The notes under the pieces are model-generated. The model was not told where the DNA came from, ran no database searches, and saw nothing but the letters and a program-made list of their open reading frames with translations. DNA of 64,000 nucleotides from Incurvaria masculella (taxonomy: Eukaryota > Arthropoda > Insecta > Lepidoptera > Incurvariidae), in NCBI GenBank assembly GCA_946894095.1, contig OX335665.1, forward strand, positions 3,172,001 through 3,236,000. Direction: 5' to 3'. A program made the translations under genes and the position numbers. Positions 9,501 through 63,385 of the stretch are shown here, one piece after another (the stretch's first letter is position 1; each line of letters begins with the position of its first letter).

Positions 9501-12500
9501 ATTCTTTTATGCACTTACATATTTTAATGGCTGTATATGTTCTCATATCTGATAGTTTCATATTAATTATGTTGCGTCGGGGTAAGTACATAACTACTCA
9601 TATATATTTGTTTAGTTTTTTTTTTTTATTACTTCTTATCTATTACGTGTGTTTTAGTGAGAAAACATTTAGACATGGGCTATTATTAAAATTGTTATAA
9701 TTTTACTATTTCATTTGGTTTATTTATGTTTTTTCGCCCTAAATGAATAAATAAATTTAGCTAAGGTGTCAATACTAGTATGTCCGATTTGAAAAAAGAA
9801 CGAAACAAGCTATTTTCAAAATTGTATTTGCATACAAAAAAAGATACCGACGAATTGAGAACCTCCTCATTTTTTTTAATTCGGTTAAAAACGCCGTTCA
9901 TAACATTCCTCGCCAAGGTAATCCCTAAAAAATTTCGCAGATTGACATAACAGAGGACTCTGCCCATAGAAATAGGATGTACTGCGAGCTGCGCGCGCAT
10001 GTTTGTACTTTTAATGCAAACAATGTGGTGGTGGTTTTATATACAACTAGCAACCCGTCCCGGCTTTGCACGGGCATAATATCATTTAAAACAATATTAT
10101 TTTGACACAATGATACACAAATAAACCCTTTTTACGTAGAGTTCCTACATTGAAATATTTGAAATAAATGAAAATTAGATATTATTATTAGACCGATCTC
10201 TGCTAAATTCATAGTGCTATAGGGGGAAACGCGGCCTCCAACGCACTATTTATGGGCCCGCTCCCGCCGCCCCGGCCGGTCGGTACCGCCGCAAACGCTA
10301 CGTCCCGCAATTTTTAAATCTGTAATATCTTCGAAAATATTCATTTAAATCACATGCTGTAACGGGCCATATAGAACAATATTAAATCAACAATGTATTT
10401 AAGGTATTTAATTGGATAAGGATTAATGCTGTATTGGTTAAAATCGCTTCGAAAATTAGCCATTATTTGTCGTAAAAAGTAAATGACAAAAAAAATTTAT
10501 TGTGGGATACCCAAAAGAGATAGACGTATACCATTGCGGAGTTTTCTGTAGAACTTTTCAATGTGTTCAATACTTAGTACATTATTTTTATAAATCTCGT
10601 AGGGTTCAGCCTGCGTTTGCAATTTAAGCGAAAAAAATTGATTTTTTTACGACATCACACTGGAAACCTCAAAAATAACAGTATTTCTCCAATATTTAAT
10701 GGATGTTATTATACATATAAACCTTTCTCTTCAATCACTCTATCTATTAAAAAAAAACCGCATCAAAATCCGTTGCGTAGTTTTAAAGATTTAAGCATAC
10801 ATAGGTATATAGGAATATAGGGATATAGGGACAGAGAAAGCGACTTTGTTTTATACTATGTAGTGATGAGTTGTTTCGACTCGTTTTAATAAGTAGCTTT
10901 TTAATAATTCAACAACTCTTGTCTTTCTACTTAGGTATCAATATTTTACTTCTCCTGGGGCTTTTTAATAATATTCACAATAATATAACATGCCATGACA
11001 CTAGTTGGAACTGTTTGTATTGGCACGAAGCGCTTTATCCTTTAGCTAAATGTATTTGGGTGTAGATATATTATCATATTTTGACTATTCTTGACAAAGA
11101 GAATAAAATCACTGCGTTTTAAGAGTCGGGAACACATTGGAACGGTTTTGGGTCGGTTTCACCGGAATGAATGAAGCGTGTACTGTCGTCCAACAAAAGA
11201 AAGATGGACAGAGCCGCCATTGCTGTCAGCACCCGTTTCATAGAACGTTTTTTACTGAGGGAGTGCGCCAGACTGATTCATGATGTTGTCGTGTGAAGTG
11301 GAGGGCCAGTCGTGCAGCCTCGGCGGTCCGGGCGACGGCATCACCGTCGGCCGCTGCGGCGCCGGGCTCGCCTGCGTCGCCGAGCAGGAGGGCAACCGAT
11401 GTCGTCGCAGTGAGTAGCCACATCTTTCAGACAAACCCATAGATAGGTGCAGATTAGCTATTGGACTTAGGTATGATAAAACGCGAGATAAGTAGGATAT
11501 TAGAATAAGTAGTATATTAGATAAGTAGCAGATTAAAAGGAATGACCCAACTTTTTTAATAATTATAATATATTATTTATGGCAGACTCAGGATTAACTA
11601 AAAAAGATTAGTAATGTTGGTGATCAATAGAAGATTTACCCTGAATCGCAAATATAATGACAAAAGATAAACTTCGTAAGAATTATTAAAACATGCAAAA
11701 ATATACATATATTCCGTTAACGCACAGTGGAGTCGGATTGCCACTCGGCTCAGGACGAGTACGACGCGAGGCACGCTCTAGGCGAAGTCGGCTTCCTAGA
11801 GGAACGGCCGCGCTGCGACGACAAGGGGAGATTCGCGCCCGCTACCTGCGTCTCCACGCAGACGTGAGTAAACTATACCGTGCAGTAACACAGTCGACAG
11901 ATTTTATACTGTATCTATAGACCTGAAATGGTAGTCGAGGCGGCTATCAATCAGCTCAGGACGAGTACGACGCGAGGCACGCTCTAGGCGAAGTCGGCTT
12001 CTTAGAGGAACGGCCGCGCTGCGACGACAAGGGGAGATTCGCGCCCGCTACCTGCGTCTCCACGCAGACGTGAGTAAACTATACCGTGCAGTAACACAGT
12101 CGACAGATTTTATACTGTATCTATAGACCTGAAATGGTAGTCGAGGCGGCTATCAATCAGCTCAGGACGAGTACGACGCGACGAGGCACGCTCTAGGCGA
12201 AGTCGGCTTCTTAGAGGAACGGCCGCGCTGCGACGACAAGGGGAGATTCGCGCCCGCTACCTGCGTCTCCACGCAGACGTGAGTAAACTATACCGTGCAG
12301 TAACACAGTCGACAGATTTTATACTGTATCTATAGACCTGAAATGGTAGTCGAGGCGGCTATAAATCAGCTCAGGACGAGTACGACGCGAGGCACGCTCT
12401 AGGCGAAGTCGGCTTCTTAGAGGAACGGCCGCGCTGCGACGACAAGGGGAGATTCGCTCCTGCCTCCTGCGTCTCCACGCAGACGTGAGTAAACTATACC

Positions 12501-15500
12501 GTGCAGTAACACAGTCGACAGATTTTATACTGTATCTATAGACCTGAAATGGTAGTCGAGGCGGCTATCAATCAGCTCAGGACGAGTACGACGCGAGGCA
12601 CGCTCTAGGCGAAGTCGGCTTCTTAGAGGAACGGCCGCGCTGCGACGACAAGGGGAGATTCGCGCCCGCTACCTGCGTCTCCACGCAGACGTGAGTAAAC
12701 TATACCGTGCAGTAACACAGTCGACAGATTTTATACTGTATCTATAGACCTGAAATGGTAGTCGAGGCGGCTATCAATCAGCTCAGGACGAGTACGACGC
12801 GAGGCACGCTCTAGGCGAAGTCGGCTTCTTAGAGGAACGGCCGCGCTGCGACGACAAGGGGAGATTCGCGCCCGCTACCTGCGTCTCCACGCAGACGTGA
12901 GTAAACTATACCGTGCAGTAACACAGTCGACAGATTTTATACTGTATCTATAGACCTGAAATGGTAGTCGAGGCGGCTATCAATCAGCTCAGGACGAGTA
13001 CGACGCGAGGCACGCTCTAGGCGAAGTCGGCTTCCTAGAGGAACGGCCGCGCTGCGACGATAAGGGGAGATTCGCGCCCGCTACCTGCGTCTCCACGCAG
13101 ACGTGAGTAAACTATACCGTGCAGTAACACAGTCGACAGATTTTATACTGTATCTATAGACCTGAAATGGTAGTCGAGGCGGCTATAAATCAGCTCAGGA
13201 CGAGTACGACGCGAGGCACGCTCTAGGCGAAGTCGGCTTCTTGGAGGAACGGCCGCGCTGCGACGACAAGGGGAGATTCGCGCCCGCTACCTGCGTCTCC
13301 ACGCAGACGTGAGTAAACTATACCGTGCAGTAACACAGTCGACAGATTTTATACTGTATCTATAGACCTGAAATGGTAGTCGAGGCGGCTATCAATCAGC
13401 TCAGGACGAGTACGACGCGAGGCACGCTCTAGGCGAAGTCGGCTTCTTAGAGGAACGGCCGCGCTGCGACGACAAGGGGAGATTCGCGCCCGCTACCTGC
13501 GTCTCCACGCAGACGTGAGTAAACTATACCGTGCAGTAACACAGTCGACAGATTTTATACTGTATCTATAGACCTGAAATGGTAGTCGAGGCGGCTATCA
13601 ATCAGCTCAGGACGAGTACGACGCGAGGCACGCTCTAGGCGAAGTCGGCTTCTTAGAGGAACGGCCGCGCTGCGACGACAAGGGGAGATTCGCGCCCGCT
13701 ACCTGCGTCTCCACGCAGACGTGAGTAAACTATACCGTGCAGTAACACAGTCGACAGATCTCATACTGTATCTATAGACCTAAAAAGGTAGTGGAGGCGG
13801 CTGTCACTCGGCTCAGGGCGGGTACGACGCGAGGCACGCTCTAGGCGAAGTCGGCTTCTTAGAGGAACGGCCGCGCTGCGACGACAAGGGGAGATTCGCG
13901 CCCGCTGCCTGCGTCTCCACGCAGACGTGAGTAAACTATACCGTGCAGTAACACAGTCGACAGATCTCATACTGTATCTATAGACCTAAAAAGGTAGTGG
14001 AGGCGGCTATCAATCAGCTCAGGACGAGTACGACGCGAGGCACGCTCGAGGCGAAGTCGGCTTCCTAGAGGAACGGCCGCGCTGCGACGACAAGGGGAGA
14101 TTCGCGCCCGCTACCTGCGTCTCCACGCAGACGTGAGTAAACTATACCGTGCAGTAACACAGTCGACAGATCTCATACTGTATCCATAGACCTGAAAAGG
14201 TAGTGGAGGCAACTATTTTCTGCGTCTCCACGAAGCTGTAAGCAGCTATGTAATACAGCCGACCGATCTTTTCATGTATTAATAATTAAGAACTGAATGA
14301 ATTACATAATATATGAATTATTTTCAGGTGCTTCTGCCAATCGGAACAGGGAGAAAGAATATTCGGTGAGGTGGAGTACCGTGATAGCAACACGCTACGG
14401 AGTATGCAGTGCGGTAAGGTTATTTTTAGGGTTCCGTACCCAAAGGGTGCCAACGGAACCCTATCACCTAGCCTCCGTTGTCCGTCCGTCCGTCCGTCCG
14501 TCTATCTGTCACAGGGCTGTATCTCATGAACCGTAATAGGTAGGCAGCAGATTTTTTTACAGGGTGTGTATTTATTTTGCCGCTATAACAACAAAAAGCT
14601 AAAGTTATTCAATAATAATAATCAAAGGGGGGCCCCATACAAGAAACGTGTTTTTTTTTTCGGTTTAAATTTTGTACTTTGGCTTGTACTTAACTTGAAG
14701 AAGGCCTAGCGGACGTCGAGAAGAACTCAAAAAGACTTCTTGTAGTTTTAAACGTATATTCACATGATGAAAAAAGAGCGTGCGTGCTGCACGCGTGCAC
14801 AAAACAATGGCGCCAACGGAAATGAAGTTTGACAAATTGGCCCCCTTAAACATACATTTCAGGCAACTATATTTAGCCAACCTATTTTGGTATTATACAG
14901 TACTTAGTAATTTAAGCATTGACAAATTTTGATACCTTAGTACAGTGACAATGGAACGACAGGAGTAGCGATAGAAGCTCATTCGTATGGCGGCAGCGTA
15001 GCCAGGATGCAAAACCACTAACTGTAGTCGGCTCGCTAACGTCTATTCGGCAACGCAACATCGAATGTTCGTTGCACTAAATAGCGTCCTGTAAATAGTG
15101 TCATTGAAAACAGAAAACATCAGTAGTAAGTTCATTCGTAAGCGAACTCACTCGTCGGCGCTGCCACCATTGTAAAATACCCAAAGACCCAGGCCGCAGC
15201 GGTGTGCCGAACCCTGGTGTTTTTACCAAAACTGCTTACGTAATTCGTTAAGATTTTATGACCCCTGCTGTCAGGTTGCTCCCGGCGCAACGAGCACATC
15301 CGCCGCAGCATCGGCGCGGGGGTCCGGCTGCCCGTGCTCGGGCCGCGGTGCTCGCAAGATGGCGGCTTCAACCCGGTGCAGTGCGACGAGCGCTCGTGCC
15401 GCTGCGTCAACAGGCTGACGGGCGTCGTCGAGGCCGCTCACCACGTCGACTTGGACGAGCACTCGATCAAGGATCTTCCCTGCTGTAAGTGTTCCGAATG

Positions 15501-30000: not shown

Positions 30001-33000
30001 ATAGGCACTTTTGTCAACAGTTGCGCGGCCGAGGCGGGGCGAGGGACGAGTTAGCCGCGCTCGGGTTACATCCTGCCGGCGCGTCAGTACTAAATGTGCC
30101 TATCGGAAAAATGCCACACAGTCGAAATATGGCCACCGCGCGCGAATGTGCTTTAATAAAACCGGCCAAGTGCGAGTCGGACTCGCACACGAAGGGTTCC
30201 GTACCATCGTAGAAAAAAAACCAAAAAATCACGTTTTTTGTATGGGAGCCCCCTTTAATTTTAATTATTTTTTAATCTTACCTATTTGTTGTTATAGCGG
30301 CAAAATAAATACACACTCTGTGAAAATTTCAGCTGTCTACCTGTTACGGTTACTGAGATACAGCCCTGTGACAGACGGACAGACGGACGGACGGACGGAC
30401 GGACGGACGGACGGACGGACGGACGGACGGACGGACGGACAGCGGAGGCTTAGTAGTAGGGTTTCGTTTTCACCCTTTGGGTACGGAACCCTAAAAATGC
30501 GTTTGTCAAGTTAGTTCCCACCCACACGAACCCTTCAATACGTCTGCGACTATGCTTGCATGAGGCTCGTACGTTTAAGTTGGGTTGGTACTTTTTGAAA
30601 ATTGGAGACAGCTGCGCTGGATGGCATATCTACTTCCTTTTTTTCTATAGTTGTAATATACAGATTAAATGTTTAAGTGTGCGTACATGACAAAAAAACA
30701 ATAATCACCATAAACTGAACGCAGCCACAGTGGTGTTCATGTGGCTGCGTTCAATTTACAGGTTTTCCTTTCTTTTCTTTCCTTCCGCTCACCGTTGTGC
30801 GAGTGACACTCGGAGCAGATCAGCGCGAACCGCTTGTTGGCGCCATCGTTGATGAAGAAGTTGAGCAGCTTATCGAGTGGACTCTGGAAGTTCGGCACCA
30901 GCGGGTGGGGGAGCTGCTCCGGCTGCAACGTTCCGGGGGAATCGATTAACCGACTGTCTCGATCGAGACGCTGATCCGTCAAAACGTGTAAAAAATATAT
31001 TTGTCCTGGTTAATAAACAGGTTTATTAACCAAGCATCTCACAATCCACAAATGTTCACCATGCTTTCTTTTACCCTAAGGTGCTCTGCAGAATTTTTTT
31101 CTAGTCGGGAATCGAACTCGCATGATTTGTGATGGTTGTGGTGAACATTTTAAACAGTTTCTCAAATATCAACACTTTCCTTAGTTTGCTGTATAGCATT
31201 CCTTCACAGGATTTGTTCCTTATAAGCGACACTATTGACTGGTGCAATATTACAGGAGTCGCATTTTTTTCAAAATCAATGAATTCGATTCCGGGCTAGG
31301 AAAACGTCGGAACTAGGGAATAATAATAATAATAATAATAAAATTATTTATTTTCACACACAACAGTACAATAATTGGTATACAGTGGCAAATACAATTA
31401 AAAACAGTTGTGGGAAACAAGTAAAGGAATATCAATCATGCGTTGTGTGATGTGTGAAAAATGGCTGTGGCTCAGCTGGATGTCAGCAGGGGCGAACCCG
31501 CTGGCCGCTGGTCTTCCGCCACCGCCACCTACAGAAGCGTCAGTGGAAGTGTGTACGTGGGAAACGACGAAACGTCGGAAAGAAGTGAGCCGTTTTAACA
31601 CTGTATATCCGTAAACATTAAGTATTATGTCGAACAACAGTGAAAATCGAAATAAACATATTAGGAAAACGATTTTTCCAAATATCGAATAATGCGGTTT
31701 TAGTTTTCATCAAAATCGGGCTCATGACTCCTTGAGTGTTTTTCGCTATTTCTTATAGTTTCAGATTTGGCCCTGAATGCCCACTTGAAAAGTTCAACCT
31801 GTATACTCTGTGCCTATGGTGAAACGTGCAAGGTGCGAGGACTAACCCGGAGCGGCGAGCGGAGGCCCGTGTGGTTGACGACACTGACGTTGTTGGCCGG
31901 CGTGGCGGGGCCGCTCTGCAGCGCGACCTGACGCTGCCTCAGCTGGCCCGGGGTCGCTGCAGACATCTCCGTGTTAAGGTGTTGAATTCCTATCCCAAGG
32001 GTCCGAATCGTGATGTCTCTCAACCATCACGAATATATTTGTGGAAACACCTGGGGGGCTACCATGGTAAGTTAACTCGCCGGGTGAATAGCAGGTGAAC
32101 AGGCAAGAGAGTAATTCAATCTGAGGTTTAGTTGCATTTTGCACCAGGCTAACAGTCAAACAACATGTTATTCAGTCAAGCCAAGTGAAAATCACTCTTT
32201 TGCCTATTCACTTGCTATTTACCTGGCGAGTCATTTACCATGGTAACCCTCCTGGTCCGAATCAGTATTCGGGAATACTGTAATAATAGGTTTGCACTTT
32301 TCTACCAAATTGTACGAATTTTCCGTTTGTCCATGGCGCCAAAAACTACCACAATTTCACATAAACAAAACACTATCTAAAAACAAATGACTGAATTTGA
32401 AAATAAAATGACATGGCTTTCGAATAAATTTTATTTGAATTTCGAATTGCGTGCCAATCCACAGATAACTTAATCTGAAAATGCTGTTTATAAAATCTCC
32501 AATTTCATAGGTAAAGACCTAATATTTGCGGTAACAAATCGCATCGCATGTGAGGGTGCTCACAAAATGACCTCAAACCATCGCCTGAACTTCTCAAGTG
32601 TCTTCAACAGAGAAGAGTATTTGATGTTAACAGTTAACAATTTGTAAGCAGTTAACTGTTTACAAACACACTTTCTGGCTCGGTACACCCATACCCATAC
32701 GAGTTGAGTTGACAAAGGCGTTTACACTCGAAAAAAAGAAACGTACATTGTTCGATGTTAAATCGAGCAAAACGTGGGAATGACATACTGCATTCTGTGG
32801 TGGAACATTTTTTGTCACAGACAATTTAACTCTGACACCTGTCATCGAGGTTAGTTCACTTATATTTTAACACTTTACCTACCCCGCTAATCTAAAGCCA
32901 AAAAAGGTGGGTTGGGTACCAGAGTACCGCTATAAGCGGCTTGTAGCTCACGGGTGCGTGCCAGGGTAGCTTAGGAGTGCCCAAGTAGGGTTGCCAGATG

Positions 33001-36000
33001 GTAGGAATTCGTCAGGAGTAATTTTAAGAAATTGGAGACAGCGGGTCTCATAGTAGACGTGCTAGATAGTACATCTTCCTTTTTTGAAGTAAGATGCGTC
33101 CAGACAGTAATCCCAAAATGGCGACTTTTAGAAAATCCTGCACAGATATAATAGTCTTCCCATCTGGCAATCCTAGCCCCAAGCGCTCTAGGCATTAGGT
33201 TAGGCATTAGGTAAGGCACGGTTTTAAGGTTATACGGGGAGGTGGGAAGCGAACCAGGAATCTAGTCTACCTGGGGCGGTCGGGAAATTACCCGGCACGT
33301 TGGCCGTCGGCACGAACGGCTTGAGCGCCTTGGAAGCGGCGTCCGGGTCGCCGTATTTGTCCAGAATCTCCTTCGCCACCTGCAATACAGCGGACATGTC
33401 TGTTTAAAGCAAGTACCTAACTTTTTTGTGTCTAGCAGCTTTAAGCTGATGTGTGTACTTTTAATTTTAATATTTTGAGTGCATTGCTACTATTATTATT
33501 ATTATGTCTTTAGTTAAGTTAAATATTCCAAGAAATGTGATATAAATGTATGTGTAATCGACCGTAGAGCAAGGACACATTAATTAAATAAAGATCCCAG
33601 TAAAAGAACTATTTTACGAATATACTGCAGGGCTGAACCCAAACTAGCAAAAATAATATTTTATAGTATTAAGAGTATACAATTAAGTATTGTACACTTG
33701 TAAAATGCACAATTGAATAAAGAATTTGAAATATTAAACATACCATTCGCGGGTATTGTGACAATTTCACCACTGGCTGGATAACCATAATTTGGAATTC
33801 TCGTCCCTCCTCCCGTAATGAATGCCTCCTACTGACACAGTGTTTAAGATTATACCTACATACATTAATTTGACGCTTCATTTGTGTTGCGGACATTTCA
33901 TACATACATATCACATTCCTTGGAATAAGCGAGGTACTTAGTACGAAAAAGTATATTTACTTAAGTTTAATATAATAAAGGTGCTTGCGTGAGAGGGTCT
34001 AGCCGATTCGCACCTAATCTAGCCAAGGGGGAGGGGGGATCGAAAAAGGCCTCACGTAATTAATGAACGCCCCCTAAGATATAATACATATTAGTAGACA
34101 TATACTTCCAGCTGAATACCTATAACTGTACACGCTGCTCCCACTACCTGTAGGACGATTCGTTCGTTTTTAATACTGTAAATGTGTGTATGTTTGTGTA
34201 ATACGGATTTATCCAGTATGTGAGCCATATTAATAAATAAATAAATAAATAAAAACCGGCCAAGTGCGAGTCGGACTCGCACACGAAGGGTTCCGTACCA
34301 TCGCACAAGATTTAAAAAAAAAACACGTTTTTTGTATGGGGCTCCCCTTTAATTATTATCATTTTATAATGTTACCTATTTGCTGTTATAGCGGCAAAAT
34401 AAATACATAATCTGTGAAAATTTCAGCTTCCTACCTGTTACGGTTCATGAGATACAGCCCTGTGACAGACGGACAGACGAACGTACGGACGGACGGACGG
34501 ACGGACAGCGGAGGCTTAGTAATAGGGTTCCGTTTTCACCCTTTGGGTACGGAACTCTGAAAAGTCGCAATCGCCCCACTCCAAAAATCACCTTGTACGT
34601 CTCCGTGTTCATGACTTCCTCCAGAATCTTTCTCTTCTCCTCCTTCATCTTGTTCAGGCCGATGCGGTCCTTCGTCAGCTTCCGGTTGTAGTACCACGAG
34701 ATACTGCTCCGGAGCATCAGGACCCTGAGACAACACACTCTACTATAAATACAATAGAGAATTGAGAAGGGAGTGCTATGATGGCTTAGAGATATGGAAC
34801 GAATAGGTGACGAAAGAATGACGAAACAAATTTACAGAGCGGAAGTGCCGTGCGCGGGCGGCCTAGGAGAATGTACGATCAATTCGATGTAATACTTCCT
34901 AAGGGTAAGGCATGTAGCACCCGTAATGGTTAACCATGTATGAAAATATGTATATCTGTACATAAAGCGAAATAAGTGTGCTGTGATCGTACTGCATGGC
35001 GCTCGCTCATCCCTTGGGCATCAAGCCCGCTTTTTGTAACAATATTTAAAGGTGTACAATAAAGTTTTTTGAATATTATTGTTATTTCTGCCTAACCTCC
35101 GGGAAAGCGGCGAGAAGGTGTGATGTATGTATGATGTATGTGTGTATGTACGTATGTATATATGTATGTATTTCTTTCCCATGATATAGTCAAGCACTAG
35201 TATGGGAAAGAAGGACATTACTGTTTTTACTGTACCTTTAAACAAGAGAATTTGATTTGATTTGTATGCAGGTTTGTACGTAAGGTATGTATGATAAAAT
35301 GTCGGGGACACAGTTCGATTGTTTTAAGGGCCTGGTACTAGCCAAATCGCAAAGTTAGACGAGGCACTCCAAGTTAACTAACTAAGTCTGACGATTATAA
35401 GTGTCATTCTTACAATAAATGATTCCTTGTCTAGGAATTGAAATATTTTCGTTAATGTATGTTTCCTTTTTCTATACAAAATACATTGCGGAAACGGTGT
35501 CCATTTCCAAACTTTTTTGACTAAATGTAGAAATCTAAAAGCAAATGGAATTTTTTGTTTATGCATAAATGCTTTTTTTGCTTATATCTAGAAATCGAAT
35601 TACTTTCAGATTTCTAATGAGAAAAATCAACTTTTTTATTTTTATTATTATTTAAATAAATGATGGAATAAAAAAATATAAACAATCCATTATCAGTCTG
35701 GAGTTCTATTTGGATTTGCTGAGGCGTTTCACTACATATTATTACATTTGTTATAAAGTGCATTTGTATGGCGCGAGTAGTTGGCTAGTCCTAGCGCCTT
35801 AAGTTGATGTCACGCACAAACCTATCCCGATTGTGTTCATGTATACCACGGATTAAGGAGCGAACGTTACGAAGTAGTACAGCACGCAGAACAGCACGTA
35901 GATGCCGACCGAGTAGGCCGTCGTGTGGCTGATGACGCGCCGGCGCTGCGGCCGCGTCGCTCGCTCGCTGGAGTAGTGCGGGAGGGGCGGGGTGCGGGCG

Positions 36001-39000
36001 ACACTCACAGGACAGGCAGCAGCAGCAGCGGCGACGCGTACAGCACCGCCTGCGGCCAGCTGTTGCCGCCCGACGCGTACACAAAGTAGTACAGCACGCA
36101 GAACAGCACGTAGATGCCGACCGAGTAGGCCGTCGTGTGGCTGATGACGCGCCGGCGCTGCGGCCGCGTCGCTCGCTCGCTGGAGTAGTGCGGGAGGGGC
36201 GGGGTGCGGGCGACACTCACAGGACAGGCAGCAGCAGCAGCGGCGACGCGTACAGCACCGCCTGCGGCCAGCTGTTGCCGCGCGAAGTGTACACGAAGTA
36301 GTACAACACGCAGAACAGCACGTAGATGCCGACCGAGTATGCTGTCGTGTGGCTGATGACGCGCCGGCGCTGCGGCCGCGTCGCTCGCTAGCTGGAGTAG
36401 TGCGGGAGGGGCGGGGTGCGGGCGACACTCACAGGACAGGCAGCAGCAGCAGCGGCGACGCGTACAGCACCGCCTGCGGCCAGCTGTTGCCGCGCGACGT
36501 GTACACGAAGTAGTACAGCACGCAGAACAGCACGTAGATGCCGACCGAGTAGGCCGTCGTGTGGCTGATGACGCGCCGGCGCTGCGGCCGCGTCGCTCGC
36601 TCGCTGGAGTAGTGCGGGAGGGGCGGGGTGCGGGCGACACTCACAGGACAGGCAGCAGCAGCAGCGGCGACGCGTACAGCACCGCCTGCGGCCAGCTGTT
36701 GCCGCGCGACGTGTACACGAAGTAGTACAGCACGCAGAACAGCACGTAGATGCCGACCGAGTAGGCCGTCGTGTGGCTGATGACGCGCCGGCGCTGCGGC
36801 CGCGTCGCTCGCTCGCTGGAGTAGTGCGGGAGGGGCGGGGTGCGGGCGACACTCACAGGACAGGCAGCAGCAGCAGCGGCGACGCGTACAGCACCGCCTG
36901 CGGCCAGCTGTTGCCGCGCGACGTGTACACGAAGTAGTACAGCACGCAGAACAGCACGTAGATGCCGACCGAGTAGGCCGTCGTGTGGCTGATGACGCGC
37001 CGGCGCTGCGGCCGCGTCGCTCGCTCGCTGGAGTAGTGCGGGAGGGGCGGGGTGCGGGCGACACTCACAGGACAGGCAGCAGCAGCAGCGGCGACGCGTA
37101 CATCACCGCCTGCGGCCAGCTGTTGCCGCGCGACGTGTACACGAAGTAGTACAGCACGCAGAACAGCACGTAGATGCCGACCGAGTAGGCCGTCGTGTGG
37201 CTGATGACGCGCCGGCGCTGCGGCCGCGTCGCTCGCTCGTTGGAGTAGTGCGGGAGGGGCGGGGTGCGGGCGACACTCACAGGACAGGCAGCAGCAGCAG
37301 CGGCGACGCGTACAGCACCGCCTGCGGCCAGCTGTTGCCGCGCGACGTGTACACGAAGTAGTACAGCACGCAGAACAGCACGTAGATGCCGACCGAGTAG
37401 GCCGTCGTGTGGCTGATGACGCGCCGGCGCTGCGGCCGCGTCGCTCGCTCGCTGGAGTAGTGCGGGAGGGGCGGGGTGCGGGCGACACTCACAGGACAGG
37501 CAGCAGCAGCAGCGGCGACGCGTACAGCACCGCCTGCGGCCAGCTGTTGCCGCGCGACGTGTACACGAAGTAGTACAGCACGCAGAACAGCACGTAGATG
37601 CCGACCGAGTAGGCCGTCGTGTGGCTGATGACGCGCCGGCGCTGCGGCCGCGTCGCTCGCTCGCTGGAGTAGTGCGGGAGGGGCGGGGTGCGGGCGACAC
37701 TCACAGGACAGGCAGCAGCAGCAGCGGCGACGCGTACATCACCGCCTGCGGCCAGCTGTTGCCGCGCGACGTGTACACGAAGTAGTACAGCACGCAGAAC
37801 AGCACGTAGATGCCGACCGAGTAGGCCGTCGTGTGGCTGATGACGCGCCGGCGCTGCGGCCGCGTCGCTCGCTCGTTGGAGTAGTGCGGGAGGGGCGGGG
37901 TGCGGGCGACACTCACAGGACAGGCAGCAGCAGCAGCGGCGACGCGTACAGCACCGCCTGCGGCCAGCTGTTGCCGCGCGACGTGTACACGACGTAGTAC
38001 AGCACGCAGAACAGCACGTAGATGCCGACCGAGTAGGCCGTCGTGTGGCTGATGACGCGCCGGCGCTGCGGCCGCGTCGCTCGCTCGCTGGAGTAGTGCG
38101 GGAGGGGCGGGGTGCGGGCGACACTCACAGGACAGGCAGCAGCAGCAGCGGCGACGCGTACAGCACCGCCTGCGGCCAGCTGTTGCCGCGCGACGTGTAC
38201 ACGAAGTAGTACAGCACGCAGAACAGCACGTAGATGCCGACCGAGTAGGCCGTCGTGTGGCTGATGACGCGCCGGCGCTGCGGCCGCGTCGCTCGCTCGC
38301 TGGAGTAGTGCGGGAGGGGCGGGGTGCGGGCGACACTCACAGGACAGGCAGCAGCAGCAGCGGCGACGCGTACAGCACCGCCTGCGGCCAGCTGTTGCCG
38401 CGCGACGTGTACACGAAGTAGTACAGCACGCAGAACAGCACGTAGATGCCGACCGAGTAGGCCGTCGTGTGGCTGATGACGCGCCGGCGCTGCGGCCGCG
38501 TCGCTCGCTCGCTGGAGTAGTGCGGGAGGGGCGGGGTGCGGGCGACACTCACAGGACAGGCAGCAGCAGCAGCGGCGACGCGTACAGCACCGCCTGCGGC
38601 CAGCTGTTGCCGCGCGACGTGTACACGAAGTAGTACAGCACGCAGAACAGCACGTAGATGCCGACCGAGTAGGCCGTCGTGTGGCTGATGACGCGCCGGC
38701 GCTGCGGCCGCGTCGCTCGCTCGCTGGAGTAGTGCGGGAGGGGCGGGGTGCGGGCGACACTCACAGGACAGGCAGCAGCAGCAGCGGCGACGCGTACAGC
38801 ACCGCCTGCGGCCAGCTGTTGCCGCGCGACGTGTACACGAAGTAGTACAGCACGCAGAACAGCACGTAGATGCCGACCGAGTAGGCCGTCGTGTGGCTGA
38901 TGACGCGCCGGCGCTGCGGCCGCGTCGCTCGCTCGCTGGAGTAGTGCGGGAGGGGCGGGGTGCGGGCGACACTCACAGGACAGGCAGCAGCAGCAGCGGC

Positions 39001-42000
39001 GACGCGTACATCACCGCCTGCGGCCAGCTGTTGCCGCGCGACGTGTACACGAAGTAGTACAGCACGCAGAACAGCACGTAGATGCCGACCGAGTAGGCCG
39101 TCGTGTGGCTGATGACGCGCCGGCGCTGCGGCCGCGTCGCTCGCTCGTTGGAGTAGTGCGGGAGGGGCGGGGTGCGGGCGACACTCACAGGACAGGCAGC
39201 AGCAGCAGCAGCGGCGACGCGTACAGCACCGCCTGCGGCCAGCTGTTGCCGCGCGACGTGTACACGAAGTAGTACAGCACGCAGAACAGCACGTAGATGC
39301 CGACCGAGTAGGCCGTCGTGTGGCTGATGACGCGCCGGCGCTGCGGCCGCGTCGCTCGCTCGCTGGAGTAGTGCGGGAGGGGCGGGGTGCGGGCGACACT
39401 CACAGGACAGGCAGCAGCAGCAGCGGCGACGCGTACAGCACCGCCTGCGGCCAGCTGTTGCCGCGCGACGTGTACACGAAGTAGTACAGCACGCAGAACA
39501 GCACGTAGATGCCGACCGAGTAGGCCGTCGTGTGGCTGATGACGCGCCGGCGCTGCGGCCGCGTCGCTCGCTCGCTGGAGTAGTGCGGGAGGGGCGGGGT
39601 GCGGGCGACACTCACAGGACAGGCAGCAGCAGCAGCGGCGACGCGTACAGCACCGCCTGCGGCCAGCTGTTGCCGCGCGACGTGTACACGAAGTAGTACA
39701 GCACGCAGAACAGCACGTAGATGCCGACCGAGTAGGCCGTCGTGTGGCTGATGACGCGCTGGTGCTGCAGCTGCGTCCACTGGCCGCGCTGCTCGATCGT
39801 TCGGATCTTCTTCTCCAACTTCTCGAGTACTTCGCTCGTCGTTTTCTTTCGCTGCAATAAAAAAAAGGAATAATTATTGATTCGGCAGCGTGTCAATTGA
39901 GTAGTATTATAATTCCCCTAGGTCCCCTTCCCCTCCTAGGTGGTAGGGTTAAAGCCCGCCCGGGTTGGTACCATCGCATTGGATGAAAAGATGGTTGAAG
40001 CGGCAATGAAAAATTGTCCGTGTTTTCCATCTAGTTCAATGTAGCCGTGCTCATAAAGGGAAGGTCCTGGCATGGCACCTTATTCCTTCGGGAATGTGGT
40101 GTATTGGGCTAATATCATAACGGTACTTGTGTGGTATTAGCCATCCATGTCAGGTCGCATAAAAAAAAACTGGCCCAATAGAAATATCATCCGTAGCAAT
40201 AGTGACGAGGGCTTTTACACCGAAAATACTTTCAGTCGTATTCAGAGTGAACCTATCAAAACTTAATAGGGGATTAGCACCGGACTAACCATACAAAAAC
40301 CGGATTCCATTTAATGGATTTTTGTGCAATTGGAGTTTTAGCAACATCTACATTTGAAGCATTGCAATCATATTTTAAAAATAATTAATCTGAAAAAATC
40401 TGAGCAATGTATATTAATACAATCCAAAGGTCGCAGGTTCGAATCCTGTTTCGGACGAATGTCATGACCAAAAACTTTTTCAGATTAATTATCTTAAAAA
40501 TCAGATTACAATGCTTCAAATGTAGATGTCCCTGAAACTCAACTTCTACTAGGTACATAACTCGACGATAATTTAGTACTTACTGCAATCAAATACTAAA
40601 TGTCACAGGTAGTTTGCTTTGTTTCAAAGTACAGTGTTAGAGAGAAAAAACTCACCACAAAATTGAGAAGGTGCAAGACAAAATTTAAAAAAAAAAATTT
40701 ATCACTTAAGAAAGCTTGATTCTATGTCCGTAAGTTTTAATTGTTAACGTAAATATCTGTGTCTTCCGGTAAAAAAATTTTAAATGGCAGTAAAAGATTT
40801 TTTTTTCCAATCTAAAAGGTTAATCCAAAAAATAAAAACATGCAGACGAACGTTTTCACAATATATTTGAAACACGAAGACAAGAAAGCCAGTCAACAAA
40901 AACAAAGACAAAAATGTCTCATTTACAGATCTCGAGAAATTAACTGGAGCGGAACGTTAGTCTAGACTAGGCTAGAAGACGCCATGAAAATTATTACATC
41001 ATAATAAAACTGAATAATTTTTTGAATTTGTTTGAAGGAGCAAACTTTCTGAAATAAGTAATCAAAAAACTGGCCAAGTGCAAGTCGGACTCGCACACGA
41101 AGGGTTCCGTACCACCGTACAAGATTTATGATAAAAAAATCACGTTTCTTATAAGGGGTGTTTGTATTTTTTTAATTTACCTATAGTTGTTATAGCGGCA
41201 AAATAAATACACACTCTGTGAAATTTTGAGCCCTGTGACAGACGGAAGGACGGATAGCCGGACGGACGGACGAACAGCGGAGGGTTAGTAATAGGATTCC
41301 GATGGCACCCTTTGGGTACGGAACCGTAAAAAGTAGATATGCTGTAATTGTGTCAAGATTGAAGATTTCAAGATTATATATTTTACAACAAAATACATTT
41401 GTATTGAAATTACATCATTCATCATTAAAAGTATTGATAAAATTATGAAATATTTGATTGTACTTTAAAATAATACAATAAAATTATGTCATACAATAAA
41501 AACCATGATTATTTTAATGTAAAATACACATTCTCAATACAGAAAAATTATTACAAAAACATCACTTAATTATTTTATAAAGCAATTTAATGGGCTGAGA
41601 AAGAGATAATGGTGCATGAACGGGGCATGGAAGGCAAGTCGCCGCGCCTCTGAGCTACGAGCTGTTTGCACATGTGTGTATTAATTATATAAATATACAC
41701 ATTTTTCCCATGCAAAAATTTAATAACCGTTACATTACACCTCATATTTATAGGTGTAATAAATTTTTTTTAATAGGCTATAAGGGGATTAAAATCAGTA
41801 TCGAAAACTAATTTTTAAAATAACAATGCCGAAAAGAAAAAAACAATATGTATTTTTTATATTTATGAAAAATGATTTTATTGTTCATTGTTTTTTTTTT
41901 TTTGTTATTATTGTATTAAATTCTCGATAATTAATTAAAGACAATTCTAAGCTGCCTCTTTGATGATTGGTATAAATCGCTGAAATAAATACAATGAGGT

Positions 42001-51000: not shown

Positions 51001-52454
51001 CTTTTTAATTGTTATCAATGCATCACCCAGCTCTGACGAATTAGGTCACTGTACCGTTGAACTGTTGCCAAATCTGACTAGGTATTGAATATGCCCCCTA
51101 TAAATTAGGCATTTGTTCTGCTAGCAGGTATCCTCACTTGTTGGGGAATAAATAATCCTTTGCATGTAAAATTACTGTTGGAAGGTTTTTTTGTTTATAT
51201 AATGTTTCTTAATTTCAATCTAATAATAGAATAGGTTGAAATGTTACATATCGAAATAATTTGAATACATCTATTGTGGAGTTTTCTCGCTGCTTTGGAT
51301 AAACTTAGATGTTTTGAAGCATTGTAATCATATTTTTGAAAATAATCTGAAAATGTTTTTGGTTGTGACATTCGTCGGAAGCAGGATTCGAACCTACTAC
51401 CTTTGGATTACATGCCCAGATTATTTAAAAAAATCTGATTAGTATGCTTTAAATGTAGATGTCGCTGAAACTCAAATGAATGAGATAATGGTAATGTTCT
51501 ATCCATGAAATACATAAAATTATCAAAATATATAAGTGTATTCAAAACAGCGAGAAACTCCTAAATAGAAGTATTTTTTTTAATTTTATCAAGCACAAAT
51601 CAAAACCGGCACAAATTACGAGGGTAGAACAAAACCGTTAAATCAACTTGTGCAGTGTTCAAAGAAACTACTAAAGCCTGATTATTTATCAATGCTATAA
51701 AGATGACTTTTGATTATTAATTTATTTTATATTTATTTATATTATATAATAATATTTATTTATTAAATAAAAATTGATTGTATAAAGGCCGTTTTTGAGA
51801 CATACACTACATAAAATTATGATTTTAAATAAGATGGCAACATTGTAAAAAATATTAAGTAAAAGTAAGCTGTCACACTGTATTCAATGGCTTTTATAGC
51901 AACCAACGGGGAAATATCAGCCAAAAGCGAACAGGATAATATCTGAGATTGCCACCTGGTGTCTATTTTGACAGCTACGACAAATGTTGCCAATAACCTG
52001 ATCCGATTTTTTTTCCATCGCCTCACTTGCATTACAACTAATTTAATTCAATATTTCATACACAGTCGGCAGTGGAAAGGGGCAGACCGGTCTTCAGACG
52101 CTCTGTGGCATTCATGAGATTATGTTGCTATTAAAATAAGTATTTAGTTACATTAAGTTATGAACGTCTTATACTTAACACTATCCAAGCCCACAGCTCA
52201 GTTCAGTTTATTCAATCAATAATTTTATTGTAGTTTAGTTGTAAGGACTAACCTAATCAGTGTGTTTTAAAACGAAACAAAAAAAGAAGTCGGAATAAAA
52301 TGCCTTCTGCGAATGAATAGGAGTGAGTAATAGCAAGCAATTTCAATTTCAATCAGATTATTTTTTTAATGGCCTGTGTTGATCGTGATGTGAAAGTCGG
52401 AGTAGTAAAAAAAATATTTACACTTACCCGAAATCTTGATATTATCAGGCCCAT
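26911..52454 (-). CDS. Lnpk: Lunapark, ER junction formation protein, whole gene (9 coding exons)
   Basis: Nine exons (52454-52428, 39851-39616, 34724-34592, 33379-33292, 31956-31847, 30922-30793, 29672-29529, 27982-27908, 27005-26911) join in consistent phase to 345 codons. Lunapark stabilises three-way junctions of tubular ER. Visible in order: MGLIISRFR, a Gly-2 start fitting the known N-myristoylation; a charged coiled coil (about residues 10-40); two membrane helices (about 48-65 and 74-96) forming the hairpin; a second charged helix containing KRKILEEVMNTETYK; a basic Gln/Arg-rich linker; a C4 zinc finger with Cys at about 234, 237, 256 and 259; and an acidic Ser/Asp tail ending EEKKQD. 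Recognition rests on the family's conserved segments recalled from knowledge, not on a search. The gene converges with the TY gene. Intron 2 carries an 18-copy array of the hairpin exon. Confidence 0.95.
27070..27361 (+). mobile_element. GGCCAAGTGCGAG / GGAC-type dispersed element
   Basis: Full length, in the Lunapark intron just beyond exon 9, with four GGAC units. Confidence 0.9.
27475..27852 (-). mobile_element. tRNA-headed SINE, near full length
   Basis: Same family with head at the high end (GCGCCACTAGGCTATGAGCC on the + strand). Lies between Lunapark exons 9 and 8. Confidence 0.92.
27908..27982 (-). CDS. Lnpk: Lunapark exon 8 (acidic tail)
   Basis: The acceptor ATTTTCAG leads to a 75-nt exon reading PMDAQMDKGTFSSSSSDSDD and KRS, a Ser/Asp-rich acidic stretch. 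The donor is G before GTAAAA. Phases are 1 in and 1 out and fit exons 7 and 9. An acidic serine stretch of this kind is usual in the Lunapark C-terminus and may be a casein-kinase-type phosphorylation region (inference). Confidence 0.85.
28190..29465. repeat. 13-copy, about 90-100 bp tandem array in Lunapark intron 7
   Basis: AACTAGCGGT (or AATTCGCGGT) recurs at 28221, 28321, 28421, 28521, 28621, 28721, 28815, 28915, 29009, 29109, 29199, 29294 and 29392. The first units keep an exact 100-bp period; later ones carry deletions. A two-unit block of 194 bp is itself duplicated (28815-29008 and 29009-29202). A lone related copy lies at 62790-62890. Confidence 0.95.
29529..29672 (-). CDS. Lnpk: Lunapark exon 7 (second half of zinc finger)
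   Basis: The acceptor is CCCGCAG. The exon reads MVFEEQFDYTSFYCAYCRRF, with the second Cys pair, then NASRKQRPRAPPL. Two donors keep phase 1: CATG before GTGTGTGC (end 29529, used here) and CGAG before GCAAGC (end 29553), a GC-AG type donor of good consensus. The choice changes eight residues. Confidence 0.88.
30157..30497 (+). mobile_element. GGCCAAGTGCGAG / GGAC-type dispersed element
   Basis: Full length with the expanded (GGAC)17 tract, in Lunapark intron 6. The predicted long frame here is a by-product of the tetramer tract. Confidence 0.92.
30371..30442 (+). repeat. (GGAC)n microsatellite inside a dispersed element
   Basis: About 17 GGAC units form an expanded version of the 3-6 unit tract seen in other copies of this element family. 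Confidence 0.95.
30793..30922 (-). CDS. Lnpk: Lunapark exon 6 (first half of zinc finger)
   Basis: The acceptor CGTTGCAG is in phase 0. The exon reads a conserved block, SPLDKLLNFFINDGANKRFA, followed by LICSECHSHN, giving the first Cys pair of the Lunapark zinc finger. The donor is G before GTGAGC, phase 1, joining exon 7 as GGG then ATG (HNGM). Confidence 0.95.
31318..31345. repeat. (AAT)n microsatellite
   Basis: About eight AAT units. Confidence 0.9.
31480..31645. other. Fragment related to the 21228 foldback
   Basis: AACACTGTATATCCGTAAAC and GTCGAACAAC mirror the 21200-21255 end; GAAGCGTCAG also recurs. Confidence 0.55.
31847..31956 (-). CDS. Lnpk: Lunapark exon 5 (basic linker)
   Basis: The acceptor GTCTGCAG leads to CG, completing GCG (Ala). 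The exon reads TPGQLRQRQVALQSGPATP and ends GLRSPLR before GTTAGT, phase 0. The Gln/Arg-rich start fits the variable linker of the family, which is the least conserved part. Phases on both sides support the call. Confidence 0.85.
32986..33175. mobile_element. TA-flanked MITE (GGGTTGCCAGATG ends)
   Basis: TAGGGTTGCCAGATGG at the left and CCATCTGGCAATCCTA at the right, 190 bp, between Lunapark exons 5 and 4. Terminal sequence related to the 62422 element. Confidence 0.8.
33292..33379 (-). CDS. Lnpk: Lunapark exon 4
   Basis: The acceptor TATTGCAG leads to VAKEILDKYGDPDAASKALK, matching the family stretch after TYK. The donor is G before GTAATT, phase 1. Exons 3 and 4 together rebuild the conserved charged helix. 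Confidence 0.9.
33540..33960. mobile_element. ATCGACCGTGAAGCAAGG / CATTCCTTGG dispersed element
   Basis: One end matches the arm of the 9067 palindrome; the other end reads CACATTCCTTGGAATAAGCG. Internal block CATAATTTGGAATTCTC is shared with 47990 and 55430. Confidence 0.8.
34250..34563 (+). mobile_element. GGCCAAGTGCGAG / GGAC-type dispersed element
   Basis: Full length, preceded by (AAAT)n, ending 29 bp from Lunapark exon 3. Confidence 0.92.
34592..34724 (-). CDS. Lnpk: Lunapark exon 3
   Basis: The acceptor TTGTCTCAG is followed by G, which completes CTG from exon 2. The exon finishes the second membrane helix (VLMLRSSISWYYNRK) and continues into a charged helix ending KRKILEEVMNTETYK, strongly conserved in the family. 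The donor is AAG before GTGATT, phase 0. A GGAC-type dispersed repeat ends about 30 bp downstream. Confidence 0.93.
35118..35175. repeat. TATG-rich simple repeat
   Basis: Alternating TATG, TGTG and TACG tetramers. Confidence 0.85.
35324..35802. mobile_element. TTAA-flanked MITE, family A copy 2
   Basis: 471 bp between TTAA at 35324 and 35799, aligned end to end with the copy at 3787. It sits 70 bp from the low end of the Lunapark exon array. Confidence 0.9.
35871..39760 (-). repeat. About 18-copy, 212-bp tandem array of the Lunapark hairpin exon with its donor
   Basis: The donor motif (ACTCACAGGACAGG on the + strand) recurs at 212-bp steps from near 36010 to 39616, with one 215-bp step (extra CAG near 39200). 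Each unit holds about 150 bp coding for VISHTTAYSVGIYVLFCVLY through LLLLPV, the donor GTGAGT and about 60 bp of GC-rich spacer. Copies are nearly identical. The low-coordinate end is the most diverged (units from 36005 and 36217), and the last piece (35871-36004) lacks the second helix. Because 212 is not a multiple of 3, long apparent frames read through three units in turn; they are not separate genes. Confidence 0.95.
39616..39851 (-). CDS. Lnpk: Lunapark exon 2 (coiled coil and membrane hairpin), array copy 1
   Basis: The acceptor TTATTGCAG has a run of T and is in phase 0; the donor is CCT before GTGAGT, phase 2. It encodes RKKTTSEVLEKLEKKIRTIE, then the first membrane helix (AYSVGIYVLFCVLYYFVY), and LLLLPV of the second helix. 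The 3' part, from about the VISH codons to the donor, is the copy repeated downstream at 212-bp spacing; only this copy has the coiled-coil codons and the strong acceptor. Confidence 0.92.
39905..40170 (+). mobile_element. tRNA-headed SINE, 5'-truncated
   Basis: Body and A tail of the family in the intron just upstream of Lunapark exon 2 (54 bp from its acceptor). Confidence 0.9.
40332..40552. mobile_element. Foldback element with a tRNA-like arm in its loop, copy 1
   Basis: Arms: ACATCTACATTTGAAGCATT and its complement ATGCTTCAAATGTAGATGT. The centre has CAGGTTCGAATCCTG, a perfect T-arm-like B box, followed by TTTCGGACGAATGTCATGAC. Confidence 0.8.
40560..41060. other. Lunapark intron 1, no feature seen
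   Basis: AT-rich with A runs. Confidence 0.55.
41064..41333 (+). mobile_element. GGCCAAGTGCGAG / GGAC-type dispersed element
   Basis: Full length, diverged in the tetramer tract. Confidence 0.9.
41340..42150. other. Lunapark intron 1, AT-rich, no gene seen
   Basis: Contains long A/T runs and one SINE head fragment (41585). Confidence 0.55.
41585..41672 (-). mobile_element. tRNA-headed SINE, head fragment
   Basis: GAGAAAGAGATAATGGTGCATGA-like block with GCCTCTGAGCTACGAGC at the high end. Confidence 0.65.
42153..42380. repeat. Left copy of a direct repeat flanking 1.5 kb
   Basis: GTTAGCAAGGTTAGAG through GCGACGTACTTGCTCAGTAC matches 43834-43970. It then carries an about 50-bp insert (GAATTGATAACCTCCTCC type) and the uninterrupted AGTATACAAACACAAAACC, the empty site of the P-like element. 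Confidence 0.88.
42380..43830. other. Segment with recurrent GTGACGGGGGTGAC motif
   Basis: TGTGACGGGGGTGAC or its complement occurs near 42405, 42580, 42664, 43260-43320 (three times, inverted) and 43460. Edges carry inverted CATTCCA/TGGAATGG-like ends (42398 and 43822). Probably one complex DNA element with a SINE fragment inserted at 43045. No gene seen. Confidence 0.7.
43045..43235 (-). mobile_element. tRNA-headed SINE fragment
   Basis: Tail and middle of the family inside the GACGGGGGTGAC segment. Confidence 0.85.
43834..43980. repeat. Right copy of the direct repeat, interrupted by the P-like element
   Basis: Matches 42153-42300 and ends AGTATACAAA, where the P-like element begins; the sequence resumes at 45697 as TATACAAACACAAAACCTG. 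Confidence 0.88.
43981..45696 (+). mobile_element. P-like DNA transposon remnant with 8-bp target duplication
   Basis: A 1716-bp element bounded by TATACAAA at 43973-43980 and 45697-45704. Terminal repeats are CTTAGATGAAAAAGGAATGG and the complement of CCATTCTTTTTCATCTAAG, with GATAGGG or GATACGG next. The 8-bp duplication plus an N-terminal THAP exon at 44122 point to the P superfamily. No transposase core is visible, so the element is internally deleted and non-autonomous. Confidence 0.8.
44122..44196 (+). pseudogene. Degenerate THAP exon of the P-like element
   Basis: ATG SSCVVEKYGN then SNGITFH, ending CAC before GTATAAG, a donor. It parallels the THAP exon at 7031 (both end NGITFH) but the second zinc-ligand Cys is Tyr. 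No further exons recognised. Confidence 0.7.
45760..45895 (-). mobile_element. GGCCAAGTGCGAG / GGAC-type dispersed element, truncated
   Basis: GGGTTCCGTACCC end with five GTCC units, lost before the AT-rich part. Confidence 0.85.
45920..46467. mobile_element. TTAA-flanked MITE, family B copy 2 (inverted)
   Basis: 540 bp between TTAA at 45920 and 46464, opposite in orientation to the copy at 19049. Shares AGAAGATCACGCC and the GGCGGG-type end. Confidence 0.92.
46543..46842 (+). mobile_element. GGCCAAGTGCGAG / GGAC-type dispersed element
   Basis: Full length, five GGAC units. Confidence 0.92.
46985..47050. repeat. Poly-C and CACA simple repeat
   Basis: A run of 13 C is followed by CACA-rich sequence. 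Confidence 0.85.
47610..48240. mobile_element. ATCGACCGTGAAGCAAGG / CATTCCTTGG dispersed element
   Basis: Same two ends as 33540; interior contains (GAAAT)n near 47890 and the CATAATTTGGAATTCTCC block. Confidence 0.82.
48630..48965 (-). mobile_element. tRNA-headed SINE, head missing
   Basis: From the CATGTCAGGT-type tail to the CTCAGAAGAGAAAGAAAGTG block; no A or B box present. Confidence 0.9.
49095..49490 (-). pseudogene. RTE-like endonuclease-reverse transcriptase C-terminal fragment, copy 2
   Basis: The - strand reads RAMERAMLGISLRDRVRNEA then IHRRTKVVNIGHRVAKLR, and further on the same GRPPARWDDDIK-type segment in another frame. Lies in Lunapark intron 1. Confidence 0.82.
50192..50581. 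mobile_element. TTAA-flanked foldback MITE, family C copy 2 (inverted)
   Basis: 382 bp between TTAA at 50192 and 50578. Same arms as the 18697 copy, opposite orientation. It lies in Lunapark intron 1. Confidence 0.9.
50745..50945 (+). mobile_element. GGCCAAGTGCGAG / GGAC-type dispersed element, 5'-truncated
   Basis: Starts in the AT-rich middle and keeps CGGCAAAATAAATACACACT and the GGAAC end. Confidence 0.88.
51298..51478. mobile_element. Foldback element with a tRNA-like arm in its loop, copy 2
   Basis: Same arms (TGTTTTGAAGCATTGTAATC and GCTTTAAATGTAGATGTCGC), with the T-arm inverted relative to copy 1 (CAGGATTCGAACCTACTACC). Only a tRNA half is present. Confidence 0.8.
51480..52425. other. 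Lunapark intron 1 next to exon 1
   Basis: AT-rich; no further exon recognised. Confidence 0.55.
52428..52454 (-). CDS. Lnpk: Lunapark exon 1 (MGLIISRFR)
   Basis: Nine codons from ATG at 52454, followed by CGG and then GTAAGT in phase 0. The peptide MGLIISRFR is the family's signature N-terminus, and it joins RKKTTSEVLEKLEKKI in exon 2. Gly-2 is the expected myristoylation site. The intron to exon 2 is about 12.6 kb and full of repeats. Confidence 0.92.
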
Positions 52455-58831: not shown

Positions 58832-59350
58832 TTATGTGTTTGCCAGGTTGTCCTGGGGAATACGTCTTTTAAGACGAGGGGCTTGTCTTTTTTTGTCCAT
58901 TAACCCACAGGCTAGTCGGTTTGGATGCATTTGGATTCTCGCTCGATAGCTTTCTGAACACATTGTTATTTCTTCCTTTACATTCAACATGCCAAGGTCA
59001 TTGTGAATTATTTCATTGGTTATATCAGCATCAGTGATGATTCTAAGCATCTTATTCTGGAACCTCTGGATGATCTCGATGTTTGAGTGTGAAGCTGTTC
59101 CCCACAGCTGGATGCCATATGTCCAAATTGGTTTGATGATCGTTTTGTACAAAAGTACTTTATTACCAAGGCTTAATTGTGAGTTGCGGCTCATCATCCA
59201 GGACATTTTGCGGAGCTGCAAGCCAAGCTGTTTTCTCTTTGTGAAAATGTGTTTCTTCCAGGTGAGTCTTCTGTCCAGGTAGAGGCCCAGGTACTTTACA
59301 TGGTCGCTTTGAGGTATCTGCAGACCGTTAAGTGTGACAGGAGGGCACGT
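58832..59350 (-). pseudogene. Jockey-like LINE, C-terminal part of ORF2
   Basis: The - strand reads TCPPVTLNGLQIPQSDHVKY then LGLYLDRRLTWKKHI, LLYKTIIKPIWTYGIQLWG and IEIIQRFQNKMLRIITDA, the region after the reverse transcriptase palm in Jockey-type elements. It ends at a stop near 58832, with a second open frame continuing to 58625. The element is 5'-truncated at about 59355 and ends in (TAAA)n at 58081, so it spans about 1.27 kb. Confidence 0.88.
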
Positions 59351-59702
59351 CTCTTAGTATTAATGTATTTTGTTTTGTGTAACAATTTTTTTGAAACAAG
59401 TCTACGTCGACAAACCAAATAAAAAAAGAAAAGTACAAACGTTCACAAAGATTATGGCGCATATTGCATTGAATGATCCTAAGAGCACATGTGCGACTTT
59501 TAACTACAAAAGTATTTATATTTAGACTTGTTATCTCTCAGTTATTATTAAGTGGTTAATAACACGGTGATTAATCGTCTGCGCTGAGTAGATTCTTGTT
59601 AAAACTGGTGCATAGGTTACTTTAATGCATTCACTGATTATGGCTAAAGTTTACTGCTAAAAGTGTATTGGAGAGTTTTTGCTCAAATAATCAAATTTGA
59701 AG

Positions 59703-62680: not shown

Positions 62681-62785
62681 CTTTATTTATTGAAAACTAG
62701 AGAAATCATGAAAATCTCACAAAAAAACCTTTCACATTCCATGAGCGCGACTCCTGTATAACGATTTGAGAAGTCTCATCGTGCA

Positions 62786-62893
62786 GATGTGTTCCATCTT
62801 CCTCTAACACGAGGTAGCGGTACTTGAGTTGACGTCTCACTCCCACACTCTGTCCGTCTTGTAAACACAGCGCAATATGTTAGGTCTATGCTC
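62786..62893. repeat. Single dispersed copy of the 100-bp array unit
   Basis: It matches the 28.2-29.46 kb unit along its length, including GTACTTGAGTTGACGTCTCA and AGCGCAATATGTTAGGTCTA. It shows the array monomer also exists outside the array, 33 kb away. Confidence 0.9.
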
Positions 62894-62904
62894 AAACTTA
62901 AGTG

Positions 62905-63385
62905 GTGCCTAGACATTGCGAAGGCAGTTGACCGGGTCGGGCACAAGGCACTGCTTTCCAAGCTGCACTCCTATAGCCTTCCACCGAGCTGTGTAACTAG
63001 ATCACCGATTTTCCGCATGGCCGCAACATAAACGTCTAAGTTGACGGTTGTTGCTCCAAAGCCATATCAGTGAACACCGGCGTACCGCAGAGCTCTTAGC
63101 TGTCCCCAACCCTTTTTCTGCTGCAAATTAATGATCTGCTTAATTTTGCCGACATTTATTGTCTCACTTATGACATCACGGTGCTAGCCAGGTACACCAG
63201 TCACCGGACCGCAAGCCGGGCTGAAGTGGAGGAGGATAGGCTCGTTGTTAAACTCGGATAGATACTGGAAAAAGTTTCCGGATGGTGTCTCCAGAACCTC
63301 GTCGAGTTTAACGCGAGCAAGACACAGGCGTGCGTATTCAGCGTGAAGCGGACTCCGTTCAGTGCGACTCCGACCTTCCAGGAAG
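62905..63385 (+). pseudogene. Degenerate LINE reverse transcriptase fragment
   Basis: The + strand reads LDIAKAVDRVGHKALLSKLH, then FFLLQINDLLNFADI, then ARYTSHRTASRAEVEED and LVEFNASKTQACVFSVKRTP with stops and frameshifts. This is the palm region of a Jockey-type reverse transcriptase; the catalytic Tyr-Ala-Asp-Asp position reads TYDI, so it is dead. Confidence 0.85.

Follow-up and report, generated by a model that had tools for sequence, protein, structure and literature searches.

Why should the intron behind the membrane-hairpin exon of Lunapark open with 17 further donor-bearing copies of that exon's end, and do these copies act as exons, as splice donors or as neither? A preliminary description of this DNA had offered three answers: isoforms with extra hairpins, decoy donors, or a coding minisatellite kept uniform by unequal exchange. 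We analysed the whole stretch of 64,000 nucleotides (the window, C25:3172001-3236000) within a 552-Mb assembly of 31 contigs, and extended the search for arrays by 100 kb on each side, giving a region of 264 kb. Coordinates without a contig name are window positions.

The Lunapark gene and its parent exon

The gene is Lunapark, as the preliminary description had it: the zinc ribbon PF10058 is present in our model (E 1.4e-15), and the N-terminal hairpin aligns to known Lunaparks. PF10058 has a single match in the whole assembly, at this locus, and the closest of 476 protein matches are lepidopteran Lunaparks at ~60% identity, so that the DNA probably comes from a moth or butterfly. The model, joined by hand at splice sites, runs on the minus strand from 52454 to 29518 and has seven exons and 299 aa. 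Exon 1 (52428..52454) encodes MGLIISRFR; exon 2 (39616..39851), the parent exon of the array, is 236 nt long with the acceptor TTGCAG, phase 0 in and phase 2 out; exon 3 (34592..34724) has the acceptor CTCAG and, at -22, a TTTAT that resembles a branch site. Exons 4-7 as found, which include the zinc ribbon, lie at 33271-33379, 31847-31956, 30793-30922 and 29518-29672. One pattern search did not find the C-terminal tail of other lepidopteran Lunaparks. Just behind the last exon found, at 28199-29465, is a 100-bp array of 13 copies, and a similar reading frame occurs at 62779-62970. Going by the sequence and its alignment, exon 2 codes for the first helix and most of the second; its last 144 nt are identical to the consensus of the array.

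Hairpin-specific fast evolution of Lunapark was considered and rejected. Relative to the divergence among 29 aligned lepidopteran sequences themselves, the hairpin has a ratio of 1.87, against 2.97 for exon 6 and 2.21 for exon 7, with the other four segments at 1.06-1.51; since exons 6 and 7 are also high, fast divergence is not special to the array. GC3 gives no clear mark of biased conversion in the hairpin part either; it is 46/47 there and 26/31 in the rest of exon 2, with exons 2 to 7 all at 83-94%.

Anatomy of the array in intron 2

Tandem Repeats Finder delimits the array at 35869-39777 (period 212, 18.4 copies, 98% matches), and its 17 extra donor-bearing copies and a final partial copy fill 35869..39615 inside intron 2 (exon 2 to exon 3, minus strand). 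That strand carries 18 GTGAGT donors, one true and 17 extra, all in the context CTGTCCT/GTGAGT, with the slash at the boundary. Their first G lies at 39615 (true), 39403, 39188, 38976, 38764, 38552, 38340, 38128, 37916, 37704, 37492, 37280, 37068, 36856, 36644, 36432, 36220 and 36008 (last). Donors are spaced by 212 bp, once by 215, which leaves 17 full units between them, and the partial copy continues from the last donor to 35869. The count of about 18 copies of a donor-bearing 212-bp unit was therefore accurate. A search of all 31 contigs with the unit returned 19 matches, every one at the Lunapark locus.

Each unit comprises 144 nt identical to the end of exon 2, the donor, ~50 nt of intron and 18 nt of diverged exon sequence. 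The latter corresponds to the part of exon 2 that directly precedes the 144 nt, which it matches at 14/18 positions, as well as only 1 in 10,000 shuffles does; at all four mismatches exon 2 has A or T and the array G or C. What had been described as the 3' part of exon 2, its donor and some 60 bp of spacer is thus right in its exon part and donor, and the spacer has to be divided into intron and diverged exon. The unit spans an exon-intron boundary, and the splice signals in the copies adjoin the intact, authentic boundary of exon 2.

The units vary little, 10/17 being equal to the consensus. Units 3, 9 and 12 have two changes in common, one of which gives L>M; unit 8 has a single change (F>V), and a 3-nt insertion in unit 2 adds one L. 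The most changed are units 16 and 17, at the far end of the array, with five changes (including a TAG in the exon-derived flank) and three changes (including T>A and R>G), respectively. A homogenised core is thus accompanied by diverged edge units. Every donor (18/18) and the open hairpin coding stretch (17/17 units) are kept, as had been claimed, but the claim of undamaged copies does not extend to the flank of unit 16. This openness is no sign of selection, because in an array that has changed so little, damage is not expected. Selection could also explain why all 17 extra donors are intact, but their integrity says little.

Arrays of the same build at three neighbouring loci

Filtering for a period of 40 or more and a length of 150 bp or more, we found 16 arrays in the 264 kb. 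Four of them, and four of the six longest, share one build: the 3' end of an exon, its donor and a short piece of intron. Besides Lunapark these are three further loci, and in all four arrays the series begins, in gene direction, with the intact exon, the remaining copies running into the following intron. In 4/16 arrays the GC of the unit reaches at least 0.55, and all four are of the donor-spanning build. The chance of four donor-holding arrays is 0.001-0.03 for 4 of 16 and 1e-5 to 4e-4 for 4 of 6, in a rough, post hoc calculation that assumes 40-100 donors in the region.

One sister array lies in the same window, at 11.7-14.2 kb, where the preliminary description had not noted it. It belongs to a thyroglobulin-type gene on the plus strand and consists of a 206-bp unit with 12 donors (1 true and 11 extra) and a diverged partial copy after them (11748..14210). 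Its parent exon (11728..11863) is 136 nt long, not a multiple of 3, and a 136-nt exon would shift the frame if included. This exon with its upstream neighbour has no Pfam match; a longer joined piece matches PF00086 (9.4e-12), most strongly over a later exon, and in a protein of Spodoptera littoralis a similar exon is, by eye, joined to the one that follows. The second sister array, C25:3239785-3241626, has 10 copies of a 184-bp (twice 176) unit from an exon of NADK2, which joined to the next exon matches human NADK2 (PDB 7n29) with E 3.5e-16. In-frame TAG codons occur in 5/9 extra copies, the donor GT has become AT in 2/9, and the spacers are 16-24 nt long (nine measurable). The third, C25:3262808-3263746, has a 169-bp unit with 5 donors; its parent exon is ZP/cuticlin-like, a weak assignment that draws on PF00100 at 3.8e-5, just under the cut-off and on another exon piece, and CUT_N at 0.041.

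Several smaller features were seen alongside. Another exon of the ZP/cuticlin-like gene, nearby at C25:3261727-3262391, is present in a second copy (94% over 131 bp); at 15287-15600 another thyroglobulin-type exon is directly followed by a decayed second copy, seemingly of its acceptor side; and further two-copy exon duplications, some of them acceptor-side, were noted nearby by eye. Spodoptera littoralis and Danaus chrysippus have predicted proteins that combine thyroglobulin-type with Lunapark parts, which makes it likely that the genes adjoin each other in those species too. An open frame at 58835-59353 on the minus strand resembles, by eye, a LINE reverse transcriptase.

The array build is not special to Lunapark. 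A Lunapark-specific function lost its place as first choice on account of the same build at the three other loci, which also makes a regional cause likely. The four arrays bear as well on whether the copies could have been produced by sequencing or assembly. Near-identical repeats are often of uncertain copy number, and ours rests on the assembly; nothing specific to this locus speaks for an artefact. The order of variants is that of true arrays, with units 3, 9 and 12 alike, a diverged far end and one 215-bp unit; array-free sequence flanks both sides; and the other three loci have different units with variants of their own. We regard an artefact as barely credible.

Can the copies work as exons?

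Were the copies a battery of cassettes, each would be spliced in as a 171-nt, 57-residue in-frame hairpin exon through an acceptor in the spacer, CTCCCGCACTACTCCAG. The AG at +41 would give an open exon of phase 2-2, and a pyrimidine-rich run precedes it, but it leaves an intron of only 41 nt between neighbours. No other AG would serve: the one at +5 lies inside the donor and is no acceptor, and those further down are in the coding stretch or out of frame. Three tandem Lunapark units contain no yUnAy branch-site word; the exon 3 acceptor, by contrast, has one at -22. The +41 AG itself is lost in 3/17 units (3, 9 and 12), and the TAG of unit 16 falls within the would-be exon. A longer intron that skips copies evades the 41-nt limit but not the absence of a branch site. 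Nor do the sister arrays fit, one having a 136-nt exon and the NADK2 array spacers of 16-24 nt as well as stops. Among Lunapark proteins of other species, a second hairpin was seen by eye in 0/16 read and 0/30 aligned, in overlapping sets of the 476 matches.

In Dscam-type mutually exclusive or cassette arrays each copy is a whole exon with an acceptor of its own, and the copies have diverged in sequence. The Lunapark array resembles them in having tandem exon copies within one gene, but its copies are nearly identical, mostly at the consensus with few residue changes rather than diverged to different proteins, and no working acceptor with a branch site is evident in them. Given the missing branch site, the 41-nt intron, the AG losses, the TAG of unit 16 and the sister arrays, we take the copies as silent. 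On this sequence evidence their use as extra exons is unlikely, and a cassette battery, with the extra-hairpin isoforms that had been proposed, is very improbable.

Growth, splicing and exchange

How the array grew, how its transcript is spliced and whether it exchanges sequence with exon 2 we infer from this anatomy. We favour, with a probability of roughly 0.8, a boundary-spanning minisatellite that has grown through unequal exchange or slippage and leaves the transcript together with intron 2; judged on the DNA, this seems the best supported of the three earlier options. A segment across the end of exon 2 would have been doubled first, and unequal exchange or slippage would then have enlarged the duplicated segment. 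The array is likely removed with intron 2, because the donor predicted to pair with the exon 2 acceptor is the nearest one, at 39615; the remaining donors, with no acceptor before them, would go out with the intron. As copies that lack an acceptor would not turn into exons, donor-spanning arrays would be tolerable.

The extra donors might instead bind U1 and tune the splicing or transcript level of Lunapark. All 18 GTGAGT sites are identical, as such a role would have it, and the title of a paper on the human CBS VNTR (see below) speaks of reduced CBS activity; in the NADK2 array, by contrast, the donor GT has been lost in two of the nine extra copies. We consider this reading improbable.

Homogenisation of the minisatellite probably takes in the parent exon 2. 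The identical core beside a diverged flank suggests, at the sequence level, that the core was exchanged with the parent exon after duplication. Alternatively, the likeness of the flank may be a chance feature of the junction and the array simply young, which is possible; both age and homogenisation are estimated from one genome. Where the minisatellite does exchange with its parent, the hairpin code could be rewritten from the intron copies. More broadly, the region could be a factory that multiplies exon ends into downstream introns, with silent copies feeding back on coding exons, a notion that we hold only tentatively and think rather doubtful; if it were true, an intron would store and rewrite part of a membrane protein's code.

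How common are such arrays?

The 264-kb region may be a hot spot for donor-spanning arrays. Eight 10-kb samples from elsewhere, put through the same filter, held 4 arrays, none recognised as donor-spanning, the exons there being unannotated. At C25:6000001-6001211 lies a 75-bp array of 16 copies whose unit reads in frame as 25 residues; it may be a coding minisatellite. In whole-genome screens of the kinase, ABC and trypsin families, read by eye, no exon array of three or more was seen among the matches listed, which were all but the last few trypsin ones of 310 (137 kinase, 19 ABC and 154 trypsin). The candidates scored were 128 of 629 for kinase, 19 of 181 for ABC and 150 of 501 for trypsin. 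These screens had no positive control: a search for the ZP family returned 2 places elsewhere but not the ZP-like array. Close pairs that cover one and the same profile segment did occur: two trypsin matches 193 bp apart (C13:19408159) and, among the kinases, at least two pairs (C5:21867451 and C7:20283345).

Relation to known systems

Amphioxus 'mirages' are reported to be minisatellite-like repeats across exon-intron boundaries, with concerted evolution inside and diverged copies at the edges; the units in globin genes measure 150-160 and 157 bp, splicing is apparently undisturbed, and the repeats were proposed as a road to new introns (PMC3087553). The genes named are Adh3, troponin C and the globins BflGb6 and BflGb9, with PGBD5 similar (PMC3087553, PMC3902484), the troponin C and PGBD5 cases coming from PMC3902484. 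The Lunapark array resembles mirages in a unit that spans the boundary, a homogenised core and a diverged edge. It differs from them in its host, an insect, in belonging to four neighbouring arrays of 169-212-bp units and up to 18 copies, all at donors, and in that splicing is predicted here.

The human CBS gene carries, according to two reports, a 31-bp VNTR, c.1444_1467+7(16_21), across exon 13 and intron 13 (PMC2630376, PMC1395315). By these coordinates its unit, like that of Lunapark, holds the end of an exon and the start of an intron, with 24 exon and 7 intron nt and a varying repeat number, whereas the Lunapark unit has ~162 exon-derived and 50 intron nt. The claim that such an array was undescribed therefore fails for the kind, which is already known from the mirages and the CBS VNTR. 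In the literature searched we found no insect case of a boundary-spanning exon minisatellite, and what appears new is the insect host, the number of copies and the clustering of four arrays.

Minisatellites seeded at the ends of exons, known from lancelets and one human gene, thus also occur in an insect, with up to 18 copies and at four neighbouring loci. The arrays suggest a rule: an array inside an exon would alter the protein, whereas a donor-spanning one could persist, tolerated because a copy needs an acceptor to become an exon. Should exchange extend to the parent exon, part of the code of an ER-shaping protein would be copied to and from an intron, and such exchange would be a testable route from repeat dynamics to protein sequence change.
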